Of a stretch of 60,094 nt of DNA, positions 4,987 through 30,207 are shown piece after piece. The DNA comes from Akkermansiaceae bacterium. GTDB lineage: Bacteria > Verrucomicrobiota > Verrucomicrobiia > Verrucomicrobiales > Akkermansiaceae. Positions within the stretch are counted from its first letter, which is position 1. Each line of letters begins with the position of its first letter. Location: contig CAIRGO010000313.1 of the NCBI GenBank assembly GCA_903878115.1, forward strand, positions 1-60,094, written 5' to 3'. Under the pieces are notes generated by a model. That model did not search any database. It was not told the DNA's origin and was given only the letters and a program-made list of their open reading frames with translations. Made by a program: the position numbers and the translations under genes.

Positions 4987-5976
4987 ATGAAATCAGCCGC
5001 AATCATTGGCTCAGGATCATTCGGCACAGCACTTGCCTTTTTGTTAGGTCAAAAAGTAGAGCGCATCACCCTCATCGGACGCGACCCTGCGATCGCTGCG
5101 GCGATCAATGAACAACATCGGAATCCTCGCTACCTCAGCGAAGCGCATCTCAGCGAAAACGTACATGCCTCAGCGAATCTTGCCGATGCAGTAGCGCACC
5201 CGTTGATTGTTTTTGCGGTTCCGACTTCAGCCACTCGCAGCACCGCTTGTGATCTCGCTAAGATCGGTACTGATGCCGCTATCGTTTCTAGCGCCAAGGG
5301 CATGGAACGTAATACCGGCGATCGCATGAGCCAAATTTTGCGAGAAATTTTTCCTGACAATCCGTTAGCCGTCATCTCTGGACCGAATCACGCCGAAGAA
5401 ATCGCCCATAACATGGCAACCTGCGCGGTAATAGGTTCGCACAATGAAGAACTGGCTGCCAGCCTGCAAAAACTATTCACGCTGCCGCACTTCCGCACCT
5501 ACACCAGCACTGATATCGCCGGCATAGAACTCGGCGGCGCGATCAAAAATATCTACGCCATCGCCGCTGGCATTGCCGCTGGCTTGGGTCTGGGTGATAA
5601 TGCCATCGCCGCTCTGGTTACCAGAGCACTCAGCGAAATGACACGCCTAGGTGTTGCCCTCGGTGGACAACGAGAAACATTTACCGGCCTCTCTGGTGTG
5701 GGAGATTTGATCGCAACCTGCTTTTCTCCACACTCTCGCAACCATCGAGTAGGACTAGCGCTGGGGCAAGGAAAAGCGCTCGATGAGGCATTAGCTAGCA
5801 TTGGCATGATTGCCGAAGGAGTGCCGAATACCCTCTCGATTTTCGAAGCCGCGCGCGTCGCCCAAATCAACACCCCGATCATTGATGCCGTGCACAGCAT
5901 TCTCTATCAGAATCGCCCCGCCGCGCTTGCCCTGCGCGATCTGCTTACTCGCGATCCACGACCTGAAGCAGATTGA
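4987..5976 (+). CDS. gpsA: NAD(P)-dependent glycerol-3-phosphate dehydrogenase
   Basis: GpsA reduces dihydroxyacetone phosphate to sn-glycerol-3-phosphate for phospholipid synthesis. The protein (329 aa) starts with the Rossmann dinucleotide loop GSGSFGTALA (residues 8-17), has SSAKGMER near 100, the substrate loop SGPNHAEEIA near 130, the catalytic Lys in ELGGAIKNIYAIAAG near 180-195 and TFTGLSGVGDL near 235. I start at the ATG at 4987, where homology begins; the frame is open further upstream inside plsY. It sits 44 bases after plsY, and both supply the same pathway. Confidence 0.95.
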   Translation: MKSAAIIGSGSFGTALAFLLGQKVERITLIGRDPAIAAAINEQHRNPRYLSEAHLSENVHASANLADAVAHPLIVFAVPTSATRSTACDLAKIGTDAAIVSSAKGMERNTGDRMSQILREIFPDNPLAVISGPNHAEEIAHNMATCAVIGSHNEELAASLQKLFTLPHFRTYTSTDIAGIELGGAIKNIYAIAAGIAAGLGLGDNAIAALVTRALSEMTRLGVALGGQRETFTGLSGVGDLIATCFSPHSRNHRVGLALGQGKALDEALASIGMIAEGVPNTLSIFEAARVAQINTPIIDAVHSILYQNRPAALALRDLLTRDPRPEAD

Positions 5977-6004
5977 TTTAGACACGTGACAAATGTAAAT
6001 ACCC

Positions 6005-6268
6005 ATGTATGCTCAATGCATGGCTGAACAACCTATTAGTAACGACTTTAAATCATTAGCTCTCGAAATGGAACCCGGCACCCATTGGTGGTGCTCCTGC
6101 GGGCGCTCTTCTAATCCACCATTCTGTGATGGTTCCCACAAAGGCACTGGGCTACAACCCGTGAAATTTGATTTGTTAGAAAAAAAGACCGTCTATCTCT
6201 GCCAGTGCAAACACACCAAAAATCCACCATTCTGCGATGGCTCGCATAAGACGCTACCGCGTGATTGA
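6005..6268 (+). CDS. Double CDGSH iron-sulfur domain protein
   Basis: The 87-residue protein holds two CDGSH motifs. The first is CSCGRSSNPPFCDGSHKG (about 31-48), the second CQCKHTKNPPFCDGSHK (about 66-82). Each binds a 2Fe-2S cluster by three Cys and one His, as in mitoNEET-type proteins; bacterial two-domain versions are known as small redox or cluster-handling proteins. There is no membrane anchor. A second ATG at residue 6 (6020) could be the true start. It lies downstream of gpsA and upstream of two small unknown genes and an A-type Fe-S carrier, so the neighbourhood has an iron-sulfur flavour. Confidence 0.9.
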   Translation: MYAQCMAEQPISNDFKSLALEMEPGTHWWCSCGRSSNPPFCDGSHKGTGLQPVKFDLLEKKTVYLCQCKHTKNPPFCDGSHKTLPRD

Positions 6269-24489: not shown

Positions 24490-24528
24490 TGTTTTAAAGG
24501 TTAATATCAAATCGCATACAAAAATGAA

Positions 24529-24587
24529 GCGGTTCGATCAGAATGCCTAGGAAAAACCCAAAACCTAGTGCTAATTGATCGAACCGC
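24529..24587 (-). repeat. Structured 59-bp repeat, copy 1
   Basis: Perfect 12-base outer arms (GCGGTTCGATCA and TGATCGAACCGC) enclose an inner 5-base stem (CTAGG and CCTAG) and a 12-base loop AAAAACCCAAAA. Its length and layout are the same as copy 2 at 24759-24817. I assign the minus strand because G-U pairs then preserve the stem of copy 2. Confidence 0.7.
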
Positions 24588-24591
24588 CTGA

Positions 24592-24606
24592 TGTCGCAGT
24601 GCGACA
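24592..24606. promoter_or_regulatory. Palindrome TGTCGCA-G-TGCGACA
   Basis: A perfect 7-base inverted repeat around a single G lies 4 bases to the right of copy 1 of the 59-bp repeat. The short centre makes a hairpin possible only with an AGT loop; it looks more like a protein-binding operator or a part of the repeat unit. There is no promoter of a gene nearby, since both neighbours end here. Confidence 0.35.
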
Positions 24607-24758
24607 CGCAAAACATAGCCAAAAAACCGACTTCGTCAACACTTTTTTGATTTTTTTTACATGAAAACTTTTGATACGTCGCAAACCGTTGACCATCAAC
24701 AATTTAAACAAGATAAAAATCCTAACCCTGCGATCAAAGATCATTTTTCCACAAAAAA

Positions 24759-24817
24759 GCGGCCCGATGATACGATGCAGGAAAAACCAAAACCCGTCAT
24801 CATGATCATCGGACCGC
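24759..24817 (-). repeat. Structured 59-bp repeat, copy 2 (possible terminator of the CotH gene)
   Basis: Outer arms GCGGCCCGATGA and the matching ATCATCGGACCGC pair with one C/A mismatch on the plus strand, which is a G-U pair on the minus strand. Inside, GATG pairs with CATC and GG with CC, enclosing an AAAAACCAAAA loop nearly identical to copy 1. On the minus strand the hairpin is followed by TTTTTT (24753-24758), so it can end the CotH gene transcript. Confidence 0.7.
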
Positions 24818-24966
24818 CGTTCATGCGCGCTGCAAGCAACTCACACCAACTTAGGACGAATCGTCCAACAAATAATCCAGTTCGTGAACCGAATCAATGT
24901 TGACAATGATACTGGCACTTGCCGTGAGTTATTTCAAAAAATCAACGTTTTTTGCAAACCAATTCC

Positions 24967-27900
24967 TCAAGGCTTTGTTTTTACCACTAAACGGAAATAG
25001 CGATTTGGTTTGCCGATTTTTGATTCGCTGTATGTGCGCATTTGCTTGCCAGAGATCATTGATGTTGCTGGTGCATCAACTTTAAACCATTGCTGGAGAT
25101 TTGAGGATGCCTCTACGAAGTAATCAAGATCACTAATAAGTGGATCGACCGCAAAGGAAACACTCGTCTGTCCGGCTGAGAAACTCAGAACTGGCGCGTT
25201 GACCACGGACGCTTGCATCGGATCGAGACCCAAGGCGTATTCTAATAAATTACTAATGCCATCACCATCAGGATCGCCAGTAGTTCCAGTGACACCCTGG
25301 CTGCTAGCCCAATTAGTAAAACGATTGCCTGGCGCCATCCTTCCTGGTGAAGCAGTAGCAGCAAACCAATTGATGAAATCGTTGCCATAATCATTTTCTG
25401 AAAGTTTTGTAAGTGATGGACCAGTGCCGTCTGGCGAAGTGGGCCAAGGAAATACGTCATCGAAATTTACACGATCTTGCCGGACATACTGAAGCACATT
25501 CAATCCATCAACTGGTCCCGGTTTGTCGATTTGTAATGTTTCTCCGCCGTTATCAAGACCGCCTGTAATCCACTCGAACACTTTAGTTCCTACAGGTAAT
25601 AGGCTGCCAAAAGACGTAGTGAAACGGCTGATATTTTTCGTGAGAATCACGCGCTCTCCCGCTTGCATCGTTAATGGCACGGCAGAAGGAAATTCAAAAC
25701 TAATTCCATCGCTCAATCGCCATGCTTTACCTTTCACCGAGTCATAGAGAGTGACTGGAGCAGAGCTCACATTTAATAACTCGATGTATTCCGCATCGCC
25801 ATTGCCCGCCGGATTATACATGATTTCAGAAATGACAATCGGCCCCACTCGCGGACCGCTATTCATCGCAACTGGTGTGGGTGTATTCATGGCAACAAAG
25901 TTATAAGAACCAGAGCTAGGTTTATAATAAACGCCCAACGTTTCCCCTTCAGAACTTGGACCAAAGTCCTCCTTAGTTTGATAATCAGTGATTTCATCAT
26001 TCACCGCCGAGCTCAGATAAACGGTCTCACCCACATCACTTAACGCAAACGGAACGATTTTGTTCGTATCAATACTCGACGAGCCAAAGTTTGCATTCTC
26101 ATAAAATACTAAATAGCCACCAGCAGGAATGATGGAGCCCACAGGAATTCGATATTTACTTAGATTTGTTCCATCATCACTTAGAAACCATCCACCGATA
26201 TTCATGTCGGCGTTTGTTCGATTGTGCAATTCAATCCAATCATTCGCAGTTCCTGAATTGGCAAGAATTTCGTTGATCACAACCGTCTCACCAATCGTAT
26301 AGGGATAATTTCCTAGTGCGTAAACATACTGCGCACCGCGATCAACAATAGAAGAGTCAGCATCGAGCACATGAACTGGATCGCCTGAATTGATGGCTGG
26401 CGAAGTGGACTTCAAGGAAAAATTCAAAATGATAGGATCCACAAATTGCGGGTCCGCGACAATGTTGTTGGTACCAGCAATCGGCAATGTATCGCTCAGA
26501 CTATAAGACGCTGTAGCGGTGGAAAACGAATCGACGGTCACAGGTGGTGTGCTAGATTTGGAAATAATGGTATTGGTAATGATGGCTTCTCCGCCGCCAT
26601 CGCCAAAGTTTTTCTCATACACGGCAACACCCGTATCGCAATCGGCGAACGTGTTTTGATCGATGGTTGCGACCGATCCAGTGTCCTTGATACCGACGCC
26701 TAACGCACAACCCACAACAAGATTTTTGCGAAGCGTAACAGTAGATGCCTGTCCTACGGAAAATCCTTTGTCGGAATTGAAGTAGATCAGGTTTCCTTGA
26801 ACTAACAAATTCGTGCAGCCTTCACCAACGTCGATGCCATCACTGTTCGACCCCTGGAATCGATAGATTTTGCAATCTTCGATCAAACCATTGGCGACCC
26901 CGTCGTAGTCGATCGCATCGGTATCGGGCGCATTGTTGCCGAGGAAGGTGCAGCGCTGTGTCACAGCCTGACCTTGTTTGACGTTGATGCAGTCGCCAGT
27001 GTGCGGATTGTAAAGCACACTATCACGCAGTGTCGTTGAGCCACCACGCGTGAACACAGGTCCTTCATTCTCGGTGATGTCCATGAAATCGAGAGTCAAG
27101 TTGGCATTCAAGCCTGAGATCGCCGATGGATATTTTGTAGCATCAGCGCCACGGGTGGCACCGGAGATTTTCGCATGTGCCAATGCCGAGGGCGCACTGG
27201 GATTTTCAAAACTGATGCCACCCCACAGAGCGCCATTGCGCCCGATGATTTGCACCTTTTGCGAAGCGGTGCCGTTAACTTGCAAAGAGCCCATCACGCG
27301 AATATTACGTTCAGTATTCATGCGAATGACCACGCCAGCAGGAACGGTCAAAGTGACACCAGATGGCACAATCAAATCTTCGGTAATGACGTAAGGTGAG
27401 CTGCCGAGGCTGAGTGTTGTGTCACTGGGCAGTGTGCCTGAGAGCAGAGTTTCGTTCGAGGGAACAAATATCGCCTCCACTGTGGAAGCCCCCGTGATTG
27501 TGATTGAGGTGCTCTCACCACCCGTGACACCAGTCCATCCACTGAACGCATAACCAGGAGCAGGAATTGCTTTGAGGGTAAAAGGAGCATTCGGAAACAT
27601 CTTAAAGGTCGATGCCGCAACGGGCACGCCTTGCACTTGCACCGTGCCGCTGCCAGTCATTTGTAAGGTAAAATTTACGGCCGTGCTCATGCCTAGTTGT
27701 GTGGCGATCTCACTGTGCGCGTTACCGACACGGGTGGTGGCGTAAGTTTTCGAGCCTGCGATACCTGCGGTCCGTGTTGCGGTCGTCATTCCACCGGGAG
27801 CCCAGCGCGTTTCATGTCGAGACACTTCTGTCGCAGAAATTTCGGCATCCACTTGTGTCCAGAGCGCTTGCATGCGAGCTTCGGCGAATGTTGATGCCAT

Positions 27901-30207
27901 GTGCGCGGCGTAGCGCTGCGCCATACGACGCTTGAATGTCGTGTTTACCTTCAGACGCACAAGCACATCTTCATTAGCCAACATATCAGCAAGAATGCCG
28001 GTCGTAGTACCCGTGGAAAGAGTACGGTCCATGTCAGTTAGGAACCATTTCCAACGCGCGCCAGCTTTTTTCTGCTTCCAAAATTCCCGGTTGTGGAACC
28101 AACTGGTATTGTTGCCATAGGATTCCGAAATCACAAAATCCATGAAACTCTCGACGTCGATTTTCGATTCGACAAAATCCCAATTCGCTTGAAGCGTGAG
28201 ATCAGCAGTGTTGATGAAATTCATGAACTCCAGCCAATCATCCGAATCCCCTTTGTCCACGCCTAGAGTCACGTCGCCACTGGTAATGTGACCGTAAAGC
28301 AAGTGATCAATGTCGTCAGAGTTAATATGATATTTTTGCGCAAACCACATATCGTCCCAGCGCTCGCGCAGATCGTGGAGGCCGTAATAATTGCCATTGA
28401 TAAAGACTACTACAGGTCGAAAATCAGCAGTATCAACGTTCAAATACCCTTTGGCAATACGCGACCATATAGCATCGCGCAACATTTCATTCGCCCAGCG
28501 GTCACCGCCGTCACGCAGAGTCATACCTGTATGCAGCGCGTTCTTCGAGCCTGGAAATATATCGTATTTGACTTCTTCAGAGCCATACTTGCCGCGCACA
28601 GCCAGATTCAGAGCCTTTTGCGGGTGAACCCAATTATTTTCTCCGCCGATACGAATGCCTACGTTGGCATTAAATTTCCCTACTCCGCCCGGTGCAAAAA
28701 ACTCGATATGTCCTGGTGCATCTTTACCTTTGTAAACATCGCTTAAACCAAAAGCCGTTGAAGTCGGTTCATGAGTATTCGTATAGATGCCAATAGTATT
28801 GCCAAATAACGTATTTGGATCCGCCACAACGGAAACATAAGGAAGAGAGCCCTGTGTTTCATTAAGAAAATAGGTGCGCGTGATGATCTGACCTGGTGGT
28901 TTACCAGATTCAAAGCAAGCCGCACGGAGGATAGTAGTCGCAGTAATCGATAAGGGGGCTGAATACAAAAGAGAATTACTTTTTGGATTACTCCCATCAA
29001 GCGTATAGCGAATTTGCCCGCTAGGAGCTGTGAGTGTGCACGTTTGATTCGTGGCATAGATTCCACCAGCTAATGAAGCGATGACATCATTTCCCGAAAT
29101 ACGAACATCACTCACTGTTGCGGTTGTATTTTCACTGCCAGGAGTGGATTCTGCAAAGTGTTTCCACAGACTTGGAGTCACGGCATCACGACCATACGAA
29201 ACATCTGAAATTTGCTGCGTATAACTAATTGTATCAATCGCAGTGGCCGACGTGTGAGAAGACGCGATAAGAGACATATCAAAGCTTAGATCAGAGCTCG
29301 TAGCAGCAGCTTGATGAACTTCCACCGCTAAGACATTATCACCCGCAATCAATAATGAAGCTGGGACGTTGTAACTGAAAAATGTCGATTCGTCAGAGCC
29401 TCCAACAGCTACAGTCGCTAGAGTTTTATAGTTAATCGAACCAATAGGCATATTTCGACGAACAATTTCTGCCCCGTTCAAATAAATCACGGCACCATCA
29501 TCGACCAAGAGATTAAGCGTTAACCCATGATAAACTGCAGGATTTGCCACATTGAAACTATGGCGAAAATAGGTCGTGATATAACGATTCGGGGAAGCAG
29601 GTGAAAACACGGTCGTCTGCGGATTGTCACCGAAACCTAACTCGGATTTCCCAGCTGCCCACAGGGAATCATCGAAAACACGCGCTCGCCATTGTGTGCT
29701 TTGATCGCTGCCATTATCGAGGTATTTCCACGTCGCAGCAATGTTTGGTAATTGGAGAGGCACTGCCGAATTCACTAATGTCGTGGTGCTGAGTCCAGTT
29801 GCCTGAGTAAGAGTTAGCGTTTCACCTTCAGAAGCCAAATTGAAATTGGTATGATAGCGTTCCGTGGTGAAATTTCTCCATGGCCAATACCCTCGTGGAA
29901 AACTCTGCAAGGGAACAGCATCATGCCCGTCGGCCATCACGAGTAGATATGCTCCTGGTGCGATGGATGCCGTTGCAGGAAATGGCCATTTATAGGGATT
30001 TGTCGGATCATCACTAAGAAAATATCCGTTTAAATTAGCGATTGCTCCGCCGTTATTTTTCAATTCAATCCAATCGGGGTAATCTTCAAAATCTACCACA
30101 TCAGGAAAAGCACGAGTATTTGAAGCCATGAGCTCATGGATCATTACCTGCGCCTGAGCTCTATGAAGAATCAAGACAGCGAGAAATAATCGAAAATTAA
30201 TCATCAT
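24967..30207 (-). CDS. Giant secreted protein with lamin-tail, CotH and beta-helix domains
   Basis: This 1746-residue protein has a signal peptide (MMINFRLFLAVLILHRAQAQ). In order I see a lamin-tail domain (about 20-130), a chitobiase-C-terminal-like FN3-associated repeat (about 375-440, IRYTLDGSNPKSNSLLYSAP), a CotH kinase-like domain (about 460-790, GIRIGGENNWVHPQKALNL and WFLTDMDRTLS), an InlB-type bacterial repeat near 890 (APGYAFSGWTGVTGGES), a right-handed beta-helix (about 985-1235), two more lamin-tail domains (about 1312-1400 and 1455-1560), a thrombospondin-3-like DPDGDGISNLLEYALGLDP near 1648 and a short beta domain ending YFRLVVKTKP. These domain sets are common in secreted Verrucomicrobia proteins, with spore-coat CotH acting as a protein kinase in Bacillus. 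Its role here is unknown; surface or extracellular polymer binding is inferred. Confidence 0.85.
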   Translation of the reverse strand: MMINFRLFLAVLILHRAQAQVMIHELMASNTRAFPDVVDFEDYPDWIELKNNGGAIANLNGYFLSDDPTNPYKWPFPATASIAPGAYLLVMADGHDAVPLQSFPRGYWPWRNFTTERYHTNFNLASEGETLTLTQATGLSTTTLVNSAVPLQLPNIAATWKYLDNGSDQSTQWRARVFDDSLWAAGKSELGFGDNPQTTVFSPASPNRYITTYFRHSFNVANPAVYHGLTLNLLVDDGAVIYLNGAEIVRRNMPIGSINYKTLATVAVGGSDESTFFSYNVPASLLIAGDNVLAVEVHQAAATSSDLSFDMSLIASSHTSATAIDTISYTQQISDVSYGRDAVTPSLWKHFAESTPGSENTTATVSDVRISGNDVIASLAGGIYATNQTCTLTAPSGQIRYTLDGSNPKSNSLLYSAPLSITATTILRAACFESGKPPGQIITRTYFLNETQGSLPYVSVVADPNTLFGNTIGIYTNTHEPTSTAFGLSDVYKGKDAPGHIEFFAPGGVGKFNANVGIRIGGENNWVHPQKALNLAVRGKYGSEEVKYDIFPGSKNALHTGMTLRDGGDRWANEMLRDAIWSRIAKGYLNVDTADFRPVVVFINGNYYGLHDLRERWDDMWFAQKYHINSDDIDHLLYGHITSGDVTLGVDKGDSDDWLEFMNFINTADLTLQANWDFVESKIDVESFMDFVISESYGNNTSWFHNREFWKQKKAGARWKWFLTDMDRTLSTGTTTGILADMLANEDVLVRLKVNTTFKRRMAQRYAAHMASTFAEARMQALWTQVDAEISATEVSRHETRWAPGGMTTATRTAGIAGSKTYATTRVGNAHSEIATQLGMSTAVNFTLQMTGSGTVQVQGVPVAASTFKMFPNAPFTLKAIPAPGYAFSGWTGVTGGESTSITITGASTVEAIFVPSNETLLSGTLPSDTTLSLGSSPYVITEDLIVPSGVTLTVPAGVVIRMNTERNIRVMGSLQVNGTASQKVQIIGRNGALWGGISFENPSAPSALAHAKISGATRGADATKYPSAISGLNANLTLDFMDITENEGPVFTRGGSTTLRDSVLYNPHTGDCINVKQGQAVTQRCTFLGNNAPDTDAIDYDGVANGLIEDCKIYRFQGSNSDGIDVGEGCTNLLVQGNLIYFNSDKGFSVGQASTVTLRKNLVVGCALGVGIKDTGSVATIDQNTFADCDTGVAVYEKNFGDGGGEAIITNTIISKSSTPPVTVDSFSTATASYSLSDTLPIAGTNNIVADPQFVDPIILNFSLKSTSPAINSGDPVHVLDADSSIVDRGAQYVYALGNYPYTIGETVVINEILANSGTANDWIELHNRTNADMNIGGWFLSDDGTNLSKYRIPVGSIIPAGGYLVFYENANFGSSSIDTNKIVPFALSDVGETVYLSSAVNDEITDYQTKEDFGPSSEGETLGVYYKPSSGSYNFVAMNTPTPVAMNSGPRVGPIVISEIMYNPAGNGDAEYIELLNVSSAPVTLYDSVKGKAWRLSDGISFEFPSAVPLTMQAGERVILTKNISRFTTSFGSLLPVGTKVFEWITGGLDNGGETLQIDKPGPVDGLNVLQYVRQDRVNFDDVFPWPTSPDGTGPSLTKLSENDYGNDFINWFAATASPGRMAPGNRFTNWASSQGVTGTTGDPDGDGISNLLEYALGLDPMQASVVNAPVLSFSAGQTSVSFAVDPLISDLDYFVEASSNLQQWFKVDAPATSMISGKQMRTYSESKIGKPNRYFRLVVKTKP

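Follow-up and report, generated by a model that had tools for sequence, protein, structure and literature searches.

Hairpin repeats in an Akkermansiaceae genome as probable copies of an apparently undescribed small RNA with a nearly fixed apical loop

The window analysed here is a stretch of 60,094 nucleotides from an Akkermansiaceae bacterium (assembly GCA_903878115.1, contig CAIRGO010000313.1). Its minus strand encodes, at 24967-30207, a 1746-aa protein with CotH kinase, lamin-tail, chitobiase C-terminal, beta-helix and InlB-repeat-like domains. Beyond the stop codon of this gene lie two hairpins, copies 1 and 2, whose parts are collected in Table 1. An initial annotation of the sequence had described them as hairpin repeats of equal length, and both are exactly 59 bp, start with GCGG, end with CCGC and hold the centre AAAAACC(C)AAAA. 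The compensatory changes that it listed were likewise recovered. Position 6/54 is T-A in copy 1 and C-G in copy 2, and position 11/49 is C-G in copy 1 and G-C in copy 2, both of them double-sided changes; position 5/55 is T-A in copy 1 and C/A in copy 2, the latter a G-U pair on the minus strand. The inner stems differ between the copies as described and are asymmetric about the centre, and six T's are present 3' of copy 2 on the minus strand. Absent from that description were the tail that follows the hairpin of copy 1 on this strand (TTCATTTTT) and the promoter-like sequence and 5' mini-hairpin of the same copy.

Table 1. Predicted features of the two hairpin copies, in positions of the window.
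Feature	Positions	Strand	Basis
Copy 1, predicted 86-nt small RNA	24520..24605	-	ends placed by promoter spacing and U-tract
Copy 1 -35-like element, TTGACG	24634..24639	-	consensus scan
Copy 1 -10-like element, TATGTT, 16-nt spacer	24612..24617	-	consensus scan
Copy 1 5' mini-hairpin, GUCGCACUGCGAC	24593..24605	-	fold
Copy 1 long hairpin	24529..24587	-	folds, pairing; the 59 bp of the initial annotation
Copy 1 conserved apical segment, GGTTTTGGGTTTTTCC	24550..24565	-	
Copy 1 U-tract, TTCATTTTT, intrinsic-terminator-like	24520..24528	-	
Copy 2, tandem paralogue	24745..24838	-	R1 model, 45.4 bits, E 6.1e-10
Copy 2 long hairpin	24759..24817	-	folds, pairing
Copy 2 apical segment, GGTTTTGGTTTTTCC	24780..24794	-	
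Copy 2 U-tract, TTTTTT	24753..24758	-	

Folding of each copy on each strand gave four structures of -23.5 to -35.2 kcal/mol (z -4.7 to -8.9). None of 200 shuffles was as good in any of the four, which runs against the suggestion that random shuffles might give equal pairing at the same rate. The 60 kb window has a single perfect 12-bp arm pair with arms 25-45 bp apart, copy 1, and 20 shuffled windows gave one between them; the arm of copy 2 holds the C/A position and hence lies outside this count. Folded as the predicted RNA, copy 1 (-38.1 kcal/mol, z -7.7) forms a mini-hairpin at its 5' end followed by the long one; copy 2 also folds (z -4.3). A-U and G-U pairs lengthen the long hairpin of copy 1 to 24527-24589, and its apical segment is GGUUUUGGGUUUUUCC.

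Copy 1 reads as a compact unit of approximately 24605-24520, in which TTGACG-16-TATGTT (24639-24612) is followed downstream by GTCGCACTGCGAC, the hairpin and TTCATTTTT. A promoter consensus scan of the region found 12 sites compared with 13.3 in shuffles, no excess, and the weight therefore rests on conservation of the promoter-like sequence: the 16-nucleotide spacing also occurs in seven of nine relatives of the genus and at a third copy in the same genome. By reading, relatives keep the 5' hairpin with other letters (e.g. GUCACAAUGUGAC). No promoter was recognised upstream of copy 2. Two relatives, G007 and G009, likewise carry a second tandem copy (L019 and L021). An inverted repeat, GGACGATTCGTCC, lies upstream of copy 2 on the minus strand (24854-24866), and comparable copies in relatives have upstream inverted repeats as well (CGGACCACGGTCCG in L021 and CTACGGTCCGTAG in L018), again with no promoter recognised upstream; judged by reading, these repeats are possibly operators.

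Further copies were sought by DNA similarity, by exact pattern and with covariance models. The DNA search of the organism's own genome gave one further place, C164:54500-54586, which adjoins a Sua5/YciO gene and has TTGACA-16-TACTTT upstream. Of 38 genomes searched, this one included, 11 matched: this genome, the other nine of its genus and one further member of the family. The exact-pattern search of named genomes returned 76 loci, 74 of them Verrucomicrobiota by title (Akkermansiaceae, Luteolibacter, Haloferula, Rubritalea and unnamed bins). A first covariance model, R1, was built from alignment A1, which holds 58 of the 62 distinct pattern matches and none from this genome; copy 2 of the window was omitted to keep the model independent, L043 because it is truncated, and L029 and L059 because of odd upstream sequences. 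R1 matched copy 1 at 24610-24515 with 65.7 bits (E 2.7e-15) and also detected copy 2, and the one further match in the window, at 28 bits, is the antisense of copy 1. Over the whole 4.4 Mb genome it found three clear copies, this antisense match and two weak matches. Pattern matches in Komagataeibacter (L057) and Pyrinomonadaceae (L098) had no R1 match at E up to 0.01 and were judged to be chance.

In the family, R1 matched 68 of 145 genomes (1-13 matches each, some antisense or weak); in the order it matched 58 of 189, and in the phylum 6 of 240, five of these six within the order. A second model, R2, was built from alignment A2 (47 sequences from six families; L173, a short R1 match, was omitted). 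It matched 197 of 288 genomes of the order, in 41 of 50 genera, a count that includes some weak matches and the genomes of training sequences. In the phylum 49 of 387 genomes matched, 22 of them in the order, and the 27 matches outside the order were all weak (best E 7.8e-6 to 9e-4). Four of these 27 were read; in L213, L214 and L215 the model had caught plain terminators, whose loops are short and unrelated. L217 (G609), from another family of the same class, is a hairpin with a UUUCUUGGUUUUUU loop and a possible distant relative of the RNA, and G574, of the same genus, possibly holds another. Two genera that contributed nothing to the training set, g22 with three copies and g31 with one, have the same architecture, in all four copies with the loop GGTTTTGGGGGTTTTTTTCC; their arms are unlike those of this window and resemble those of L172, a training sequence from their own family, f4. 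One genus of the family, g3, which is probably Akkermansia proper, gave R1 matches in none of 19 genomes and, among the matches listed, only weak R2 matches; a weak match from this genus, L216, is a plain terminator with a short unrelated loop. Bins labelled Akkermansia muciniphila in the public record carry the RNA (L027, L032, L034 and other loci), and the label of the L027 record is probably wrong.

The arms of the hairpin covary. A2 is a plain MAFFT alignment with no structure fitting, and in it 97.4% of 658 cells of the outer 14-bp helix are paired, although most of the sequences came via a helix-aware model and were thus partly chosen for pairing. Double-sided changes occur at 11 of the 14 pairs (89 cells in all), any of five measures was reached by none of 500 shuffles, and sliding the partner by 1-3 columns left 21.6-51.5% of cells paired. 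The initial annotation had proposed a structured RNA or a repeat family under selection, and had suggested a covariance model as a check, with more copies and further covariation counting as support. More copies were indeed found in this genome and across the order, the covariation extends to most pairs of the outer helix, and the reading as a structured RNA is supported.

The wobble pairs indicate which strand is read. Outer stem cells of A1 comprise 736 Watson-Crick, 118 G-U, 7 A-C and 9 other combinations, where 50 of the 118 G-U cells come from a pair at which the search pattern fixed G and so allowed G-U and not A-C. At the seven pairs with neither side fixed, the counts are 325 Watson-Crick, 68 G-U, 5 A-C and 8 other, in related sequences whose events are not independent. 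This excess of G-U over A-C identifies the minus strand as the RNA strand, since G-U pairs would become mismatches on the opposite strand, and the minus-strand reading given at the outset was right.

Among the sequences compared, the loop is nearly fixed while the paired arms vary freely. We scored an apical motif, GTT-N0-5-GG[TG]*TT, in 132 distinct copies hand-picked from the R1-search matches, with antisense matches and a few repeats left out; 130 held it, compared with a shuffle mean of 6.5 and a maximum of 11. This conservation partly reflects how the copies were selected, as the first pattern held GGTTTTNCC and both models hold the loop; the loops of other families are free of the constraint by the GGTTTTNCC pattern. 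The loop in this window is GGUUUU-GGG-UUUUUCC, and that of another family is GGUUUUGGGGGUUUUUUUCC.

Promoter-like sequences stand at a fixed offset from many copies. TTG[AC] occurs at offset index 40 or 41, within one base of the place of the copy 1 element, in 63 of the 132 distinct copies and, within the family, at index 37-44 in 74 of 112, compared with a shuffle mean of 11.9 and a maximum of 21. A strict score (TTG and T....T) was reached by 43 of 93 copies in the family (shuffle mean 17.9, maximum 28) and by 13 of 20 in other families (mean 3.8, maximum 10); many copies of the family thus have no textbook promoter. The sequence TGGCAY-N6-TGC, a sigma54-like pattern, occurs in 17 of the 132 copies, and 15 of the 17 have it at index 47-48; shuffles averaged 0.065 and never exceeded 1. 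In these fifteen, sigma54-like -24/-12 elements at one offset take the place of the TTGAC promoter (L042, L044, L047, L052, L060, L068, L087, L089, L175, L180 and L182, and second copies in L030 at 111-206, L086 at 5973-6068, L180 and L182). Since different copies have sigma70-like or sigma54-like promoters, the paralogues seem to be under different sigma factors. Another promoter-like group, comprising L183 and second copies in L178, L179, L185 and L186, has CGATA or CGAAAG and then GTATNNTCC; by reading, it perhaps reflects an alternative sigma factor.

The 5' element keeps its position in the RNA under either promoter type and thus seems to belong to the transcript. A hairpin fold of this element was obtained in copy 1, C164, L168, L189, L030 and L157 and, by reading, in L190-L192. 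The predicted mini-hairpin is not universal, being weak in GUCGCGAC forms and seemingly absent, by reading, from L170 and L209, where a transcript would begin at the long hairpin. At the other end, the 12 bases after the stem contain at least seven T's in 45 of the 58 A1 sequences, six in 8 and at most five in 5, so that a T-rich tail is missing from 5 of 58 aligned copies.

A T-rich tail behind most copies would also be expected if the hairpins were transcription terminators and nothing else, with copy 2 serving CotH, copy 1 serving transcripts from upstream, and the conserved loop tolerated. The CotH gene, on the same strand, ends about 130 bp before the start of copy 2, and some copies sit between convergent genes. 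Terminators, however, need no loop that is nearly fixed over an order, nor a promoter-like sequence at a fixed offset, nor a 5' mini-hairpin, and the plain terminators caught by the model (L213-L215 and L216) have short unrelated loops. We therefore consider it improbable that termination is all that these hairpins do. It is possible that copy 2, as a small RNA gene, also ends the CotH transcript, a role that had been suggested for it before.

For the genomic setting, all-versus-all BLAST was run on the genes that flank 109 loci, up to 3.5 kb away where the locus extended that far. LON-domain and LpxA-like genes are kept as neighbours in this window, G007 and G008, and other neighbours are kept within f1. 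Five f2 loci have an upstream neighbour in common (L155, L157, L158, L165 and L166), and three f4 loci have another (L170-L172). Sharing across families was pairwise among the matches listed: a downstream gene is common to L163 (f3) and L169 (f4), and one gene to L161 (f2) and L170 and L171 (f4). No neighbour was present in more than two families among the matches listed for the 109 loci, which speaks against a role in regulating a single gene in cis. The tandem arrangement of this window, with both copies in the same orientation, is found repeatedly: 17 neighbouring pairs are separated by 110-881 bp, and in eleven the distance is at most 280 bp.

Multiple copies in tandem pairs and clusters at varied locations could also arise from a mobile or repetitive DNA element that spreads by copying, in the form of a REP/BIME-like palindrome or a MITE, and a REP-like family had been offered initially as an alternative. 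REP/BIME palindromes have an associated transposase and are present in many copies per genome. The 4.4 Mb genome, however, holds three clear copies only, other families of the order often have one match per genome, and promoter-like sequences accompany the copies at a fixed offset. Moreover, the upstream neighbours shared by the five f2 and the three f4 loci are as under vertical inheritance, and strand-specific wobble is unexpected of DNA. A spreading DNA element is thus highly improbable.

The structure, strand, conservation and copy number of the element, and its promoter-like and terminator-like parts, are well supported by these sequence comparisons, and the hairpin RNA is very probably transcribed. 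Copy 1 and many relatives would have a promoter and a terminator of their own and no fixed neighbour, as expected of a trans-acting small RNA (sRNA). We infer from this, with a probability of roughly 0.55, a family of trans-acting, Hfq-independent sRNAs of about 85-100 nucleotides that work via the loop by pairing with mRNA. RNA polymerase would start just upstream of the short 5' hairpin, in copy 1 from a sigma70-type promoter, make the long, very stable hairpin and stop at the U-tract that follows, such that the hairpin would be the body of the RNA and its terminator in one. The arms, free to mutate while pairing, would hold out a U-rich apical loop with a central G-run, the presumed working part. 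Most likely, this loop would pair in trans, without Hfq, with A-rich mRNA segments that hold CCC (core AAACCC). Paralogues under different promoters would let different signals feed the same loop, and proteins with an RRM domain may be a partner.

Searches for loop complements showed neither clear enrichment nor excess and thus lend mRNA pairing no support of their own. Around 494 ORF starts, AAACCC occurred 6 times in start regions, 10 times antisense and 17 times inside ORFs, no clear enrichment. Two other motifs at the same starts were ambiguous at best: CCCAA occurred 38 times, compared with 23 antisense, 17 inside and 29 mirrored, and AAAACC 18 times, compared with 19, 5 and 12, respectively. 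Near-exact complements of the loop numbered 7 in this genome and 8 in a reversed control, and one of the 7 is copy 1's own complement.

This lack of clear enrichment at starts fits a second reading, in which the RNA would act on protein, as a binder or sponge: its loop would bind and titrate an RNA-binding protein, such as an RRM protein, in the manner of CsrB/RsmZ or 6S RNA. A loop nearly fixed over the order while its arms change would be expected of a protein site, and amplification of copies fits titration. Hfq, the usual RNA helper, also seems to be missing from the bacterial family (a search for PF17209 was positive in 0 of 145 of its genomes and in 5 of 14 control genomes), and RRM proteins are present in 143 of the 145. 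Their numbers correlate with those of RNA matches (rho 0.50). Genome size, however, correlates with RNA numbers (0.42) and with RRM numbers (0.61), and at the level of genera the RRM-RNA correlation is 0.48 (p 0.06) against 0.63 for size; as both follow genome size, size explains the correlation about as well. Genus g3, moreover, has RRM proteins in 18 of 19 genomes and, by R1, the RNA in none. There is also one loop per RNA, in contrast to CsrB, which has many protein-binding sites per RNA. We rank protein binding second, as possible though unlikely, and mRNA pairing via the loop first.

Several specific candidates were rejected. Sponge RNAs of CsrA/RsmA carry several GGA motifs in loops, and GGA is absent from all 28 apical segments listed, with one large loop per RNA. 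6S RNA is about 180 nucleotides long with a central bubble; the element here is about 86 nucleotides and has no Rfam match in the window and loci searched. The 59-bp length recalls integron attC sites, a resemblance judged by reading to be coincidence. Anti-Shine-Dalgarno pairing would fit, on paper and by reasoning only, the GGGGGU loops of other families and not the UGGGUUUU loops here. Rfam 15 gave no match in the whole window at the gathering cut-off; 13 loci gave three tRNAs only, none on the element, and in six loci searched at E up to 1 the six matches were confined to a single tRNA region of L012, with the element unmatched. Among the records listed by a literature search there was no title or opening of an abstract about the element, which is no proof of its being unpublished. 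Word searches of two papers found no Verrucomicrobia word in either PMC8632094 or PMC8040213, the latter containing passages on terminators. The small RNA thus appears to be undescribed.

The Qrr sRNAs of Vibrio are sigma54-driven, Hfq-dependent siblings with several stem-loops; some copies here likewise appear sigma54-driven, although sigma54-like promoters belong to a minority of them. In its presumed manner of working, the RNA comes nearest to LhrC and FopS. LhrC1-5 of Listeria monocytogenes (PMC4132741) are short, multicopy, CU-rich sRNAs of 111-114 nucleotides that act on lapB mRNA through three redundant CU-rich sites, with Hfq dispensable, the copies apparently additive and the terminator-hairpin loop among the target-binding motifs. 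The RNA here is also short and multicopy, and LhrC pairs via its terminator loop without needing Hfq, as we propose for this RNA. It differs in having one U/G-rich loop rather than three CU-rich sites and in being order-wide, whereas LhrC is described there from Listeria species (PMC4132741). The FopS family of Bacteroides thetaiotaomicron comprises 14 paralogous sRNAs associated with the RRM-1 protein RbpB, which pair near the start codons of susC-like mRNAs through a consensus seed at the 5' end and for which the authors saw no strong sub-diversification (PMC11697453). Paralogous sRNAs and near-universal RRM proteins are common to both systems; the conserved part is the 5' seed in FopS and the apical loop of the terminator hairpin here, and sigma70-like or sigma54-like promoters set copies apart here, unlike the little sub-diversified FopS (PMC11697453). 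We regard the RNA as a new family of a known kind, with homology to LhrC and FopS examined through Rfam only.

A wider hypothesis, speculative and rather doubtful, is that this RNA is ancestral and order-wide in the Verrucomicrobiales, with its nearly invariant U-G-U apical loop, carried on a terminator hairpin, the recognition site of a global post-transcriptional system, possibly RRM-based, that replaces Hfq; it would be kept as one match in many lineages, whereas in Akkermansiaceae it would have multiplied and come under different sigma factors. Regulation by sRNAs is little charted in Verrucomicrobiota, and the table of one review has 8 annotated sRNAs in all for the Planctomycetes-Verrucomicrobia-Chlamydiae group (PMC9029176). 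An order-wide RNA with a searchable covariance model would provide a handle on post-transcriptional control without detectable Hfq, and its nearly fixed loop makes a sharp prediction that is testable in cultured Luteolibacter, Haloferula and Rubritalea. With arms that vary freely and a loop that hardly does, the small RNA is a candidate regulator in bacteria of a family that seemingly has no Hfq.
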